DNA of 64,000 bases from Phycisphaeraceae bacterium. GTDB taxonomy: Bacteria > Planctomycetota > Phycisphaerae > Phycisphaerales > UBA1924. Position 1 is the first letter of the stretch. Each line of letters opens with the position of its first letter. Under the pieces are notes generated by a model that was not told the DNA's origin, did no database searches, and was given only the letters and a program-made list of their open reading frames with translations. Both the position numbers and the translations under genes were made by a program. Positions 46,146 to 50,993 of this stretch are shown here, one piece after another. Where the stretch lies: NCBI GenBank assembly GCA_007693965.1, contig RECQ01000052.1:1-64000 (forward strand), read 5' to 3'.

Positions 46146-46625
46146 ATGCGTGCATCAATTCGGAAGGGTTTCACACTGGTCGAGATTCTGATTGTGGTCG
46201 TGATCCTGGGGATCCTGGCCGCGATCGTCGTGCCTCAGTTCACCAGCGCCAGCCAGGAAGCCATCAAGGGCGCCCTGAACAGCCAGCTGCAGACGATCAA
46301 CAGCCAGGTTGAGCTGTATCGTGTGCAGAACGCGGGCGTTCTGCCGCATAATGACAACGACAACCCCATGCTTGTGCCGGCTGAATGGAACGGTTGGGGC
46401 GTTTTGGTGGAAGATGATTACCTGAAGTCCGAGCCACGGAATGGCTACACGCGTACTAGGAACATCGTTGCCAATACTTTCACAGTCAATCCGGATACGG
46501 ATGGCACAGCAGCGGGATGGACCTACAACAACACGACTGGTCAGGTGGCCGCCAATGGCTACAATCACGTGGACAATATTTTGGCCAGTGACGACAACAC
46601 CCTTGGTGGTTGGACACCTTGGTGA
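46146..46625 (+). CDS. Type IV pilin-like major pilin/pseudopilin
   Basis: This 159-residue protein has a canonical prepilin signal, RKGFTLVEILIVVVILGILAA, cleaved after Gly, with Glu at +5 of the mature protein. The rest of the helix (VVPQFTSASQEAI) leads into a small beta domain that lacks a Cys pair. It is a subunit of a type IV pilus or type II secretion pseudopilus. GGAG about eight bases upstream supports the start. Assembly genes are not in the window. A truncated relative follows, separated by a terminator. The mature C-terminal part is Asn- and Thr-rich. Confidence 0.9.
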   Translation: MRASIRKGFTLVEILIVVVILGILAAIVVPQFTSASQEAIKGALNSQLQTINSQVELYRVQNAGVLPHNDNDNPMLVPAEWNGWGVLVEDDYLKSEPRNGYTRTRNIVANTFTVNPDTDGTAAGWTYNNTTGQVAANGYNHVDNILASDDNTLGGWTPW

Positions 46626-46718: not shown

Positions 46719-46750
46719 CAGTCGGGCTCTTAGCGGGGCCTGACTGTTTT
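46719..46750 (+). terminator. Rho-independent terminator after the pilin gene
   Basis: An 11-bp stem with two G:T pairs (46719-46729 with 46736-46746), a 6-base loop and TTTT at 46747-46750. It ends the pilin transcript and abuts the start of the truncated pilin copy, which therefore should not be expressed from the pilin promoter. Confidence 0.85.
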
Positions 46751-47111
46751 GCGCAGGGGGATGATATACGTACGCGTGCAGAACGCTGGCACACTGCCTC
46801 ACCTTCACGAGACGATCGCCCCCACCGGCGACACTGGTGAGAATATCGGCGGCACCCAGCATACCAGCTGGGGCGTCTTCGTCGAGAACAACTACCTGAA
46901 GGCCGAGCCCCGCAACGGCTTCACCCGCAGCACCGCCGTCGTTGCCGCAGCCACGCCCACCGCGTGGGCCCAGGGCATCGACCAGGGCTGGACCTATTCC
47001 AACGCCACCAACAACACGGCCGGCACTGTCAACGCCGTCGGCTATGACAAGGTCAACAACCTGCTCGCCAATGAGGATGACTACGTCGCCGCGACCGCGG
47101 ACGAGTGGTGA
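46749..47111 (+). pseudogene. 5'-truncated pilin copy lacking the prepilin helix
   Basis: This open frame of about 120 residues lines up with the C-terminal two-thirds of the pilin at 46146-46625: YVRVQNAGTLPH against YRVQNAGVLPH, WGVFVENNYLKAEPRNGFTR against WGVLVEDDYLKSEPRNGYTR, and DQGWTYSNATNNTAG with GYDKVNNLLANEDD at matching positions. The prepilin signal and first helix are absent and no good ribosome site precedes its ATG, so it cannot make a pilin alone. It keeps its own downstream terminator. It could be a decaying duplicate or a donor cassette for recombination. Confidence 0.8.
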
Positions 47112-47166: not shown

Positions 47167-47202
47167 ACGGCCGGGCCCTTCGCGGGGCCCGGTCGTCTTT
47201 TT
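47167..47202 (+). terminator. Rho-independent terminator after the truncated pilin copy
   Basis: A 12-bp stem with one G:T pair (47167-47178 with 47185-47196), a 6-base loop and TTTTT at 47198-47202. It resembles the stem after the intact pilin gene in position and plan, suggesting that the tandem copy was duplicated together with its terminator. Confidence 0.85.
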
Positions 47203-47221: not shown

Positions 47222-47347
47222 GGGTGCCGTGGCAAGCTTGTTTTTGCTTGCCACGTGAATGGAGAAACACTGTCCGAACTTTCGAATTCACCGTCGTTTC
47301 TGTTTCAGGACCACCGACAGAATCACGCTCTCGAACGTCCGTGTGGC
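47222..47347 (+). repeat. REPIN-like unit R1, right hairpin lost
   Basis: It starts GGGTGCCGTGG and has the full left hairpin, CGTGGCAAGC 47228-47237 with GCTTGCCACG 47246-47255 around an 8-base T-rich loop. The spacer is diverged from those of R2 and R3, and the right hairpin is missing; the unit runs straight into the left end of R2 at about 47348. Confidence 0.85.
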
Positions 47348-47500
47348 GGGTGCCGTGGCAAGCTTGTTTCTGCTTGCCACGCGAATGGAAGAACACCGAC
47401 CGAACCCCCGAAATCACCGTCGTTTTCTGGATAAGGCCTCCGAAGGATTCACGCATTCGAACGTTCGCGTGGCAAGCAAAAAGAAGCTTGCCACGGCACC
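47348..47500 (+). repeat. REPIN-like unit R2, complete
   Basis: This is the best complete copy, 153 bases. The left hairpin is CGTGGCAAGC 47354-47363 with GCTTGCCACG 47372-47381, and the right hairpin is 47468-47477 with 47486-47495. The outer ends GGGTGCC and GGCACC are complementary, so the entire unit is a large inverted repeat around a spacer of about 85 bases containing CCGAACCCCCGAAATCACCG. Confidence 0.9.
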
Positions 47501-47667
47501 CAGCAAGCTTGTTTCTGCTTGCCACGTGAATGGAATTACACCGTCCGAACCCCCGAAATCACCGTCGTTCTCTAGATCAGGCCTCCGAGGTGTTCGCGCA
47601 TTCGAACGTTCGCGTGGCAAGCAAAATGAAGCTTGCCACGGCGCCCAAACTCCTTGCCACGGCGCCC
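47501..47667 (+). repeat. REPIN-like unit R3, left hairpin shortened, plus end remnant
   Basis: The left hairpin is cut to GCAAGC/GCTTGC (47503-47508 with 47517-47522). The spacer matches R2 closely, and the right hairpin is complete (47613-47622 with 47631-47640). A further CTTGCCACGGCGCCC fragment at 47653-47667 is a remnant of another unit end next to the transposase gene stop. Confidence 0.85.
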
Positions 47668-47679
47668 ACGCCAGCTCAA

Positions 47680-48237
47680 TTACTCTGTGTTTCCCCACTC
47701 CTCCGGATCGATCGCGTGCGGGCCTGCTCTCTTCTGGTCATACCATCGCGCCGAGGACCACTTCCAGTCTGTCGGTCGGTCGACCAGACCGCGGCGGACG
47801 GGGTTGTCGTGGATGTAGTCGAACTTCTCTTCAAACTCCTTCTGCGTGTAGATGTTCCGGTCGTAGCCGCCGCCTCGAAGCCAGAAGCGGTGGCGGCCAT
47901 CGGCGTCGGTGATACGAGGGAGTATCGGCGCATCCAGCTCGCGCCATCGCTCAAGGATCTCATACGCGAAGGGACGTTTGAGCCTATAAAGAAAGCGATC
48001 GACAGAAATCTCCGGGAGTCGCGGCAGCAGAAGCAGGTGAACATGCTCGGGCATGATCACCCACGCCACCAGCCGCTGAGTCTGTTCGATGCTCAACTCC
48101 GCCAGGCGAAGGGCAAAGGCGGTCTTTATCTGATCGTTCGAAAAAAGCGGGAGCCGCTGATGGCACGAAAACGTCAGGAACCGATGCTCACCCGGGGCCT
48201 CACAGCGCACGCGGTGTCGACGTTTCGATTGCGACAT
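47680..48237 (-). CDS. REP-associated tyrosine transposase (RAYT, Y1_Tnp family)
   Basis: A protein of about 185 residues. It has the HUH motif as VIMPEHVHLLLLP, then WLRGGGYDRNIYTQKEFEEK and YIHDNPVRRGLV with the catalytic Tyr, ending in DWKWSSARWY. These are the hallmarks of TnpA_REP/RAYT proteins, which cut single-stranded REP hairpins and, unlike IS200/IS605 transposases, are usually single-copy genes kept by the host. ATG 48237 is the Met nearest the domain; no ribosome site is clear. Four REPIN-like units flank the gene, supporting a working pair. Confidence 0.93.
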   Translation of the reverse strand: MSQSKRRHRVRCEAPGEHRFLTFSCHQRLPLFSNDQIKTAFALRLAELSIEQTQRLVAWVIMPEHVHLLLLPRLPEISVDRFLYRLKRPFAYEILERWRELDAPILPRITDADGRHRFWLRGGGYDRNIYTQKEFEEKFDYIHDNPVRRGLVDRPTDWKWSSARWYDQKRAGPHAIDPEEWGNTE

Positions 48238-48321
48238 GGTGTAAAAATTGTGGTTTGAATAGAGTGAATCTGCAAGCTGACGCCCTGGCGGACGAGTCAG
48301 GCGCTGTGGCGAGTCGAGTGC

Positions 48322-48476
48322 GGGGTGCCGTGGCAAGCTTCCTTTTGCTTGCCACGCGAATGTTCAAATGCGTGAATACTTCGGTGGCCTGACCCAGAAA
48401 ACGCCGGTGAATTCGAGGGTTCGGACGGTATTGTTCCACTCGCGTGGCAAGCAAAAACAAGCTTGCCACGGCACCC
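48322..48476 (-). repeat. REPIN-like unit R4, complete, inverted relative to R1-R3
   Basis: Both hairpins are intact: 48329-48338 with 48347-48356, and 48443-48452 with 48461-48470. Read on the minus strand its spacer matches that of R2 over most of its length, with a few substitutions. It lies 76 bases upstream of the gltX start. Confidence 0.9.
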
Positions 48477-48551
48477 GCCGCAGAGCCGGCTCTGCCACGG
48501 CGCCCCTCTTGCTGCACTACGGCGCCCCAGCTTTGACGCTACCCTCCCGCC

Positions 48552-50237
48552 ATGTCCTCGAACACATCTCCCGTCATCACGCGTTTCGCTCCCTCGCCCA
48601 CCGGCCACCTCCACATCGGCGGCGCCCGCACCGCGCTCTTCGCGTGGGCCTACGCACGGCGCCATGGCGGCGTCTTCGTCCTGCGCATTGAGGACACCGA
48701 CCAGGCACGGTCGAGCGAGGAGTCCACCCGCGGCATCCTCCAGGATCTGGCGTGGCTTGACATCCTGTGGGATGAGGGGCCGGAGTTCGCGTCGGAGGGC
48801 GGCAAGGCGAGCGGCGGCGACCCCCGCGGCGTCGGGCCCTTCTCCCAGTCGCAGCGGCTCGATCTCTACAACGCCCACATGGAGCGGCTGATCGACGCCG
48901 GGCGGGCGTATCACGCGTTCGAGTCGCCGGAGGAGCTGGACGAGAAGCGCAAGGCCTCGCTCGCCGCGGGCAGGCAGCACCGTTACGACCGGGCGGCGCT
49001 GGAGGTTCCGGAGCAGGAGCGCAAGCGTCGGGCGGCGGCGGGGGAGCCGCACGTGGTTCGGTTCCGTGTGCCGGACGGCGCCATCACACTGACCGACGAG
49101 GTGCTGGGCGAGGTGACGCTGGCGCCGGGGGAGGTGGACGACTTCATCATCCGCAAGCGCGACGGGTTCCCGACGTACCACTTCGCGGTGGTGGTCGATG
49201 ACGAGCTGATGGGCGTGACCCACGTGATCCGCGGCCAGGAGCACCTGAACAACACGCCGCGGCATGTGGCGCTGCAGGAGGCGCTGGGGTTCCGGGTTCC
49301 GAAATTCGCGCACCTGCCGCTGATCTTCAGCGCCGACGGCTCGAAGATGTCCAAGCGCGACAAGGACAAGGCGGCCCGGGACGCGTGCAAGCGGGCCGGC
49401 GTCGAGGGGCCGCCGGCGACGAACATCAGCGCCGATGAGTTCGCGGCGTGGATGAAGGACAACAAACGCCAGCTCCAGACTGAACAGCTCGCGGCGATGG
49501 CCGAGTCGATGGGGCTGGAGCTGCCGGAGATCGACGTCGAGGACTTTCGGGCCGCGGGATATCTGCCCGATGTCGTGTGCAACTACATCTCGCTGCTGGG
49601 CTGGTCGCCGCCCGCGGAGGCGGGGAAGGACATCGAGAAGTTCGACATGGCGTTTTTGTGCAAGTGGTTCGAGTTGGGGCGGATTGGCAAGACGAATGCG
49701 CGCTTCGACCGCAACAAGCTGCTGGCCTTCAACAACGATGCGATCGGCGCCATGTCGGATGAGGAGTTCGCGGACCGCTGGCGTGAGTGGTGCGCGCGGT
49801 ACGAGCCGCAGCTTCCCGAACGGCTGGGAGCCGATCGCTTCGCAATGCTGGCCGCGGCGCTTCGGCCCCGGACCAAGACCCTGCGCGAGGCCGCGGCGGG
49901 GGCGGGCTTTGCGCTGCTCCCCGACGACGCCATCGAGTTCGACGCCAAGGCGGTCGAGAAGACGCTGAAGAAGAACGACGGCGAGGGCCTGGCGGTCCTG
50001 CGCGAACTGAAGCCACTGCTGGAGGCCCTGCCGACGTTCGACCCGGCGCCGATTCACACCGTGCTCGAGACCTACGCGGCGGAGAAGGGGCTCGGCATGG
50101 GCAAGATCGCCCAACCGCTGCGCGTGGCCCTGACGGGAGGCACGGTCAGCCCCCCGATCGACGCTACGGTGGCGGTGCTGGGGCGGGAAGCGGTGGTGGG
50201 GCGGATTGAGCGGTGCGTCCGAGAAATTGGCGGCTGA
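48552..50237 (+). CDS. gltX: Glutamyl-tRNA synthetase
   Basis: This is a class I synthetase of 561 residues that charges tRNA-Glu. RFAPSPTGHLHIGGARTAL carries the HIGH motif and SADGSKMSKRDKDK the KMSKS motif. It is about 90 residues longer than E. coli GltX. About 55 of these lie directly after KMSKS, where the usual short loop is replaced by a Lys/Asp-rich helical insertion before GYLPDVVCNYISLLGWS. The C-terminal anticodon-binding domain is normal (LPERLGADRFAML). Whether it is a discriminating enzyme cannot be judged. The gene starts just after REPIN unit R4 with no strong ribosome site. Confidence 0.95.
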   Translation: MSSNTSPVITRFAPSPTGHLHIGGARTALFAWAYARRHGGVFVLRIEDTDQARSSEESTRGILQDLAWLDILWDEGPEFASEGGKASGGDPRGVGPFSQSQRLDLYNAHMERLIDAGRAYHAFESPEELDEKRKASLAAGRQHRYDRAALEVPEQERKRRAAAGEPHVVRFRVPDGAITLTDEVLGEVTLAPGEVDDFIIRKRDGFPTYHFAVVVDDELMGVTHVIRGQEHLNNTPRHVALQEALGFRVPKFAHLPLIFSADGSKMSKRDKDKAARDACKRAGVEGPPATNISADEFAAWMKDNKRQLQTEQLAAMAESMGLELPEIDVEDFRAAGYLPDVVCNYISLLGWSPPAEAGKDIEKFDMAFLCKWFELGRIGKTNARFDRNKLLAFNNDAIGAMSDEEFADRWREWCARYEPQLPERLGADRFAMLAAALRPRTKTLREAAAGAGFALLPDDAIEFDAKAVEKTLKKNDGEGLAVLRELKPLLEALPTFDPAPIHTVLETYAAEKGLGMGKIAQPLRVALTGGTVSPPIDATVAVLGREAVVGRIERCVREIGG

Positions 50238-50283
50238 GCATGTAGGGGCGAAGGGCATTTGTCCACGCTCACGGAGCGGAATA

Positions 50284-50303
50284 GACTGGTCGATAGACCA
50301 GTC
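50284..50303 (+). promoter_or_regulatory. Operator-like palindrome upstream of the antitoxin gene
   Basis: GACTGGTC (50284-50291) and GACCAGTC (50296-50303) form a perfect 8-bp inverted repeat with a GATA centre, ending 16 bases before the antitoxin ATG. Phd/VapB-type antitoxins usually bind such sites to repress their own operon. It could also overlap the promoter. Confidence 0.6.
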
Positions 50304-50319
50304 GGTATGGAGGCCCATC

Positions 50320-50586
50320 ATGCGCCGCAAGAACCCCACTGAAAAACGGATCGGCTCATACGAAGCCAAGACACATCTGTCGCGGCTGCTCGATGATGTT
50401 GAAAAGGGTGATGCGTTCACCATCACGAGGCGCGGCGTTCCCGTCGCCAGGCTCACGCCGGTGGAGGGTCGCGATCGGGATCGTGTTCGCAAAGCGATCG
50501 CGCGGCTCCGTGCCGGACGACCCGGCGTCGGCGATGCAGACTCCGGTGAGATCAGGCGCATGATCGACGAAGGGCGGCGTCGGTGA
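50320..50586 (+). CDS. Phd/YefM-type antitoxin
   Basis: This 88-residue protein has the Phd/YefM N-terminal fold (IGSYEAKTHLSRLLDDVEKGD, FTITRRGVPVARL) that binds operator DNA, followed by a basic, toxin-neutralising tail. GGAGG six bases upstream supports ATG 50320. It overlaps the toxin gene as GTGA, the usual arrangement for tight antitoxin-first translation. A palindromic operator candidate lies directly upstream. Confidence 0.88.
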   Translation: MRRKNPTEKRIGSYEAKTHLSRLLDDVEKGDAFTITRRGVPVARLTPVEGRDRDRVRKAIARLRAGRPGVGDADSGEIRRMIDEGRRR

Positions 50587-50993
50587 AGGGCCTTGTCGTC
50601 GATTGCTCGGTCACGGCGGTGTGGCTGCTCGAAGATGAGGACGACCGAGTCGCGATCGCTGCGCTGGAGGCGGTCGACACGACGCCGATCAGCGTTCCTG
50701 CGCTCTGGATTTACGAGGTGATGAATGTGCTCGTGGTTGCGGAGCGGCGCAAGCGTCTGAAGGCGAAGAAGTTCAACGTGCTCCTGGAGGAGCTTGCGGA
50801 GATCCCCATCGCCATTGAGCACGATGTGGACCCGAACCGGGTCATCGAGATCGCCCGGCGCCAGAAACTCTCGGCGTACGACGCCGCCTATGTCGAGCTT
50901 GCGCAACGCAAGTCGTACGAGCTTTGCACGCTCGACCAAGGCATGAAGAAAGCCGCACGCGCGGAAGGCGTCAGCCTCTTTGAACCGGCGTGA
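50583..50993 (+). CDS. PIN-domain toxin (VapC-like)
   Basis: This 136-residue PIN domain ribonuclease toxin has its acidic metal site in VVDCSVTAVW (Asp), WIYEVMNVL (Glu), SAYDAAYVELA (Asp) and CTLDQGM (Asp), matching the four conserved acids. It starts with GTG inside the antitoxin stop. Cleavage of a specific RNA, often initiator tRNA in VapC, is expected from the family. No mobile genes are adjacent apart from the RAYT locus 2 kb away. Confidence 0.88.
   Translation: MKGLVVDCSVTAVWLLEDEDDRVAIAALEAVDTTPISVPALWIYEVMNVLVVAERRKRLKAKKFNVLLEELAEIPIAIEHDVDPNRVIEIARRQKLSAYDAAYVELAQRKSYELCTLDQGMKKAARAEGVSLFEPA

Follow-up and report, generated by a model that had tools for sequence, protein, structure and literature searches.

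The distinguishing feature of the RAYT locus in the window (the whole 64,000-nt stretch of DNA that was analyzed) is the tag at the foot of its hairpins, which is GTGC in place of GT[AG]G and which recurs at the majority of the window-type RAYT loci retrieved (the best 80 of 468 relatives). The locus is, with high probability, a REPtron, in which a single-copy, domesticated IS200/IS605-like RAYT accompanies REP doublets that it probably mobilizes, with GTGC, and sometimes GTGG, serving as the tag in a planctomycete-centered clade. Judged from sequence, the anatomy appears ordinary and the tag new: apparently, GTGC is the guide in a system of RAYT/REPIN type, and nearly all of the retrieved window-type RAYTs that it accompanies come from Planctomycetota.

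The RAYT gene (47680–48240, minus strand) begins with ATG and encodes a TnpAREP-like Y1 HUH transposase of 186 aa, with EHVH as the HUH motif and YIHDNP as the tyrosine motif. The protein matches Y1_Tnp in Pfam and scores 92.4 bits against the NCBIfam equivalog NF047646 (REP_Tyr_transpos), the cut-off of which is 80. Its nearest solved structure by sequence is TnpAREP 4er8 (E 9.7e-6), and a Foldseek search with its AlphaFold model (mean pLDDT 88) again returned 4er8 first (E 1.9e-8), with ISDra2 and other IS200/IS605 transposases next. The window RAYT thus combines an HUH motif and a single catalytic tyrosine with a Y1 fold closest to that of TnpAREP. Among 39 aligned window-type sequences, E65, H66, V67, and H68 are invariant and Y142 is nearly so; EHVH is the HUH motif in all 80 named relatives (best 80 of 468), 76 of which keep the catalytic tyrosine. 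Four of these 80 genes lack the tyrosine (L152, L164, L169, and L170) and six contain an in-frame stop (L108, L121, L143, L179, L180, and L184); such genes are probably decaying or have changed in function. A profile search of the window's own genome found one RAYT above the cut-off, and therefore a single full copy, as well as two weak RAYT-like matches below it, of 30 and 22 bits (G000:C19:9627–9920 and G000:C25:3749–4072, respectively). Many near-identical transposase genes, the hallmark of an IS200/IS605 insertion sequence (PMC6006769), are not what this one full copy represents; a lone complete gene flanked by REPs with copies across the genome is the arrangement of a RAYT/TnpAREP gene.

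The first-pass annotation described four paired-hairpin units, three on one side of the RAYT and one inverted on the other side. This arrangement is present, but only units 2 and 4 are complete. Unit 1 (47222–47347, plus strand) consists of the tag GGGTGC, a full first hairpin (47228–47255), and the spacer, with the second hairpin absent. Unit 2 (47348–47502, plus strand) has hairpins at 47354–47381 and 47468–47495, outward GTGC tags, and an 86-nt spacer. The first hairpin of unit 3 (47503–47647, plus strand) lacks the tag and its outer 4 bases (47503–47526), and the second is full, with the tag GCGC (47613–47640). Unit 4 (48323–48476, minus strand), which is inverted relative to units 1–3, has hairpins at 48329–48356 and 48443–48470. 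Two solitary half-REPs lie on the minus strand, CTTGCCACGGCGCCC at 47653–47667 and TGCCACGGCGCCC at 48493–48505. The 10-bp hairpins said to be built on CGTGGCAAGC were confirmed: stems at the window locus are 10 bp (CGTGGCAAGC/GCTTGCCACG), loops are 8 nt, and six hairpins are perfect. A complete unit reads GGGTGC, then CGTGGCAAGC, an 8-nt loop, and GCTTGCCACG, then 86 nt, and then the inverted copy and GCACCC, with the tags pointing outward. In units 2, 3, and 4, the hairpins are separated by 86 nt, in agreement with the annotated spacer of about 85 bases; the conservation of this spacer, however, is local, and dispersed REPINs differ in their spacers. Over the aligned unit, identity to unit 2 among the four local units is 82–91%, and the inverted arms 47342–47505 and 48319–48482 (164 nt) are 90% complementary. 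Folded together with a few flanking bases, unit 2 forms one long hairpin (z = -9.6), and none of 200 shuffles was as stable. Two inverted REPs able to pair into one hairpin, the mark of a REPIN, are therefore present in unit 2 by folding and, by sequence, in units 2 and 4 and in dispersed doublets on contigs C2, C18, C31, and C73.

A search of the 3.48-Mb genome for CGTGGCAAGC hairpins, as proposed in the first-pass annotation, revealed a dispersed family of 18 perfect hairpins, 6 at the window locus and 12 at eight other sites on six contigs; the reversed control of the pattern gave 0 matches. The 12 hairpins elsewhere rule out a reading in which the repeats are local duplications only, and the analysis supports the annotation of a planctomycete RAYT accompanied by REPIN-like doublets. 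With the tag attached, the hairpin has 15 exact matches in the genome (5 at the window locus and 10 elsewhere). The inverted arms, the genome hairpin count, and the fold z score place the repeat structure far beyond chance. In the REPIN on contig 31, each hairpin carries the variant stem CGGGGCAAGC, the change being paired on both sides. Spacers of the dispersed REPINs fall at 32–33 nt in three cases and at approximately 87, 91, and 96 nt in three others (91 and 96 being taken from unit lengths), and these longer three show little similarity in alignment. A clearly similar spacer is common to the four window copies only, which suggests that these four units are local duplicates of one doublet. 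The other sites include several solo REPs. One dispersed REP (L016, approximately 1430–1480; G000 contig 73, near 52480) has a partner hairpin that reads as long runs of G and T, possibly a sequencing or assembly error at the hairpin. The copy number is low, with 18 perfect hairpins versus the more than 100 per genome called usual (PMC2817692, partial text), and this counts against the REPtron explanation.

A reading of the hairpins as transcription terminators or as structures in RNA, unlinked to the RAYT, is extremely unlikely. The palindromes do adjoin gene ends, and a doublet is able to fold as one long hairpin. However, their tag is constant, one-sided, clade-specific, and concentrated at RAYT genes, and the window repeats match no Rfam family at the gathering score. 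The hairpins may have a secondary role in RNA.

The tag was examined across 81 window-type loci, comprising the window and 80 named loci (best 80 of 468), which by record title are nearly all from planctomycetes, with L132 from Armatimonadota and four labeled only as bacterium. A further 30 loci (L077–L106) were used in no count. Controls were 127 regions of 1200 bases situated at least 2 kb from the RAYTs of the same loci. A hairpin-foot scan, which determines for each recurring hairpin which of the 256 tetranucleotides occupies its 5′ foot, called GTGC at 49 of the 81 loci, GTGG at 8, and GTAG at 1, compared with 2, 2, and 1, respectively, among the 127 controls. The sole GTAG locus, L111, also has GTGC. 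None of the three tags was called at 24 of the 81 loci, 11 of which contain repeated GTGCC and 13 of which do not. The top enriched 6-mer in the 500-nt RAYT flanks versus regions further out is GTGCCA (255 occurrences versus 50.1 expected), which is present in the flanks of 74 of the 80 named loci. Similarly, GTGCC ranks first among 5-mers that recur with their next six bases, at 62 of the 80 loci versus 6 of the 127 controls; recurring GTAGG plus six bases was found at 3 of the 80. The stem that follows the tag begins with CAC, CAT, or CGT in 60 of the 66 distinct stems scored, and the rest of it varies widely from species to species. Calling tags by repeated k-mers alone gave GTGC outright in 45 of the 81 rows and miscalled the window itself as GTGG; this approach was rejected because GTGGC also occurs inside the stem CGTGGC, and the hairpin-foot scan replaced it.

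Canonical RAYTs occur in the same phylum. Of 392 planctomycete genomes searched, 228 have a match to NF047646 at E <= 1e-10, and 131 have one above the curated cut-off. The best of these matches are the other kind of RAYT, most readable rows of which carry WQRRFWEH, a motif like that of E. coli. At the 30 canonical loci returned for the best NF047646 matches, some of which are near-identical, the hairpin-foot scan called GTAG at 20, GTGC at 0, and GTGG at 0, the other 10 having none of the three tags. A count based on k-mers alone showed GTAGG recurring at 24 of these 30 loci and GTGCC at 5. Some canonical REPs hold GGGTGCC within the hairpin, after GTAG (L285). Some canonical GTAG REPs, at L285 and other loci, read GTAGGGTGC, placing GGGTGC, which is the conserved tag region in GTGC REPs, at the stem base of a GTAG REP as well, and a shift in hairpin register could link GTAG and GTGC REPs.

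In a tree built by a quick method from 105 RAYTs (81 window-type and 24 canonical), the two kinds lie on opposite sides of one branch with SH-aLRT support of 100. Six canonical loci were left out (L280, L288, L295, L300, L303, and L305), a motif search having found no fitting open frame. The association of tag with clade is one deep split and therefore a single evolutionary contrast. Within the window-type clade, the GTGG loci L137, L146, L149, L164, and L175 form one group (support 90), and L157, L161, and L177 stand singly elsewhere; from this scatter, the fourth tag base seems to have been switched more than once. A grouping of RAYTs was reportedly made by Bertels and colleagues in 2017.

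The GTGC clade shares genomes with GTAG systems. Genome G081 carries both kinds of RAYT. Its window-type RAYT (its locus L083 is identical to L111) is accompanied by GTGCCACATGGC hairpins, and exact GGTGCCACATGGC occurs 14 times in G081 and 0 times in three other genomes. Its canonical RAYT, L290, is flanked by GTAGGGTGGGCC repeats with the tag GTAG. The count of GTAGGGTGGGTC across G081 with one mismatch allowed, 36 versus 33 in the reversed control, is hardly above the control, and the evidence for the GTAG family is therefore the repeats beside the RAYT genes.

These data bear on the reading in which the locus belongs to a described RAYT subclass, as a canonical REPtron tagged with GT[AG]G, and merely resides in a planctomycete. 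The anatomy is the same, with a single RAYT, outward-tagged doublets, and dispersed copies, and GTGG is the tag at the 8 window-type loci noted above. Nevertheless, this reading is decidedly unlikely in view of the preponderance of GTGC, at the window and at 49 of the 81 loci with GTAG at one, and of the EHVH motif shared by all 80 relatives (best 80 of 468), where the subclass table of PMC6006769 has DH or NH. The REPs of the window have neither GTAG nor GTGG at the 5′ foot.

The closest described counterpart of the REPtron proposed here is the E. coli TnpAREP/RAYT with its BIMEs (4er8; PMC8266576, partial text), which shares the HUH-plus-tyrosine fold, the flanking REPs, and a tetranucleotide tag at the hairpin foot. 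The window tag is GTGC whereas that of E. coli is GTAG, and the window stem is perfect, without the AA-GC bulge of E. coli REPs; the EHVH form of the HUH motif is a further difference. The GTAG REP superfamily (PMC3733652, partial text) likewise comprises tagged palindromes and head-to-head dimers 20–100 bp apart, some beside tyrosine transposases; the fourth tag base in the window REPs, in contrast, is C. According to the same partial text, GTAG REPs exist in Planctomycetes and the PVC superphylum, R. baltica is among the genomes rich in tyrosine-transposase genes flanked by repeats, most REP partners are 20–100 bp apart, and conserved spacers are the rule in head-to-head dimers. The novelty that the first-pass annotation attached to the planctomycete host and to the long spacer was thus anticipated; the GTGC tag was not among the features that it noted. 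Genes of TnpAY1 subclasses 2.6 and 3 are known to have nearby REP-like structures that lack GT[AG]G, and class 3 occurs in Planctomycetes (PMC6006769). Class 3, however, has NHVH, W[TA], YV[VI]..EQ, and the foot CnGA where the window has EHVH, WL, YIHDNP, and GTGC, and the window RAYT falls outside it; subclass 2.6 is mostly from Bacteroidetes, with NH[LIV]H and atypical, weaker structures, whereas the window hairpins are strong. The survey in PMC6006769 combined inspection by hand with an automatic search using GTAG/GTGG descriptors. That automatic search, like any REP survey requiring GTAG or GTGG, would miss GTGC-tagged REPs. The main text of PMC3733652 contains no word beginning with GTGC. 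Literature searches, including one for GTGCCACTG with planctomycetes, found no GTGC-tagged REPs in openly accessible main texts, and an earlier notice of the tag is possible.

Another difference between the two RAYT clades concerns the loop that in E. coli is linked to recognition of GTAG. The GTAG-recognition region of E. coli TnpAREP includes W94, Q95, E100, H101, and R104, with the role of W94 unclear (PMC6006769). Aligned to 4er8, the window RAYT reads W-L-R-G-G-G-Y-D-R-N-I-Y over this stretch; the window-type loop is W[QL]xGGGYDRN-like, compared with WQPRFWEH in E. coli. The 39 aligned proteins of the window type show no variation at W120, G125, or D127 and almost none at G123, R128, or N129. 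GT[AG]G-tagged subclasses also have D for E100 and sometimes R for H101 (PMC6006769), and changes at these two residues alone therefore cannot explain the tag or name a causal residue. The C-terminal tail of E. coli TnpAREP contacts the last two GTAG bases (PMC8266576, partial text). By analogy, we infer that the whole loop, or the C-terminal tail, takes part in reading the GTGC tag. Inspection by eye found no residue that tracks GTGG versus GTGC inside the window-type clade.

Doublets are present at some sites and absent from the corresponding sites in a related species. In a related genus, syntenic stretches of species G091 and G079 share approximately 90% identity. REP clusters with sufficient flanking sequence numbered 38, and for 17 of them both flanks located the site in the other genome, with flank identity of about 76–95%; some of these sites were encountered from both sides, and one was counted twice. 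Eight entries, corresponding to seven distinct orthologous sites, differ in REP or REPIN content: five have no REP or REPIN in one species, and two have another copy number or partner. The junctions are not readable, which makes gain and loss indistinguishable, and no target site or cut dinucleotide is claimed. The RAYT locus itself is syntenic in G091 and G075 (82% over 2.1 kb) and is missing from the syntenic site in G083, where 109 bp separate the flanks. It is also missing from that site in G079, where, by eye, a degraded doublet is left.

Joint movement of the RAYT and its flanking inverted units as one IS- or TIRtron-like element might be imagined from the inverted order of the units on the two sides of the RAYT and from the absence of the RAYT and REPIN block at the syntenic site in these two of the four species of the genus. 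It is very improbable, however, given that the window's own genome has one full RAYT yet several solo REPs, that the RAYT locus is syntenic in the other two species, and that the degraded REPIN kept by G079 fits loss. A search of G079 with the window RAYT gave a single match at E <= 1e-5, the canonical gene L285; three NF047646 matches were counted in this genome, and among the matches listed, L285 is the only one. The GTGC doublet of G091 has 32 matches in G079 (loci L229–L236, L309, and L311), many to one half only, with no window-type RAYT found at E <= 1e-5. The doublets may therefore outlive their RAYT, and G079 is perhaps a natural case of orphaned REPINs.

Under the REPtron explanation, exposure of a strand, for example at a replication fork, would allow each REP to form a hairpin whose 5′ foot carries GTGC as a single-stranded tag. 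Tag and hairpin together would be recognized by the RAYT, which would nick beside them via its tyrosine and could move or copy the outward-tagged doublet, the REPIN, to another site. Stem and loop would drift between species, with GTGC, sometimes GTGG, rather than GTAG being the recognized tag. This proposal draws on the RAYTs of E. coli, S. maltophilia, and Marinomonas, which bind, nick, and rejoin single-stranded DNA containing the hairpin and tag; the E. coli enzyme tolerates no substitution in GTAG, those of S. maltophilia and Marinomonas tolerate many, and some tag changes in Marinomonas moved the cut between CT and CA (PMC8266576, partial text). By the same analogy, the cut site for a GTGC REP should differ from CT; the guide rule of IS608/ISDra2 likewise predicts a shift away from CT when the last two tag bases change. 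We tentatively entertain, at somewhat less than even chances, a broader proposal in which GTGC replaced GTAG as the guide tag of the whole RAYT clade centered on Planctomycetota, with matching changes in the loop and cleavage dinucleotide, and the two REP populations coexist in one cell as separate systems that do not cross. A natural clade with another tag makes tag reading testable by swaps, which bears on the choice of REPs and cut sites by RAYTs.

Several other features lie near the array. Two tandem pilin-like genes precede it on the plus strand (46146–46625 and 46749–47111), the second resembling the C-terminal part of the first. The Pfam domain N_methyl is found in the first only; the second lacks the N-terminal methylation motif and has no Pfam match. 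By eye, a hairpin followed by a T run, resembling an intrinsic terminator, lies just before the REPIN array (47172–47202). Farther along, a Phd/YefM antitoxin and PIN-domain pair (50206–50993, plus strand) adjoins the gene for glutamyl-tRNA synthetase.
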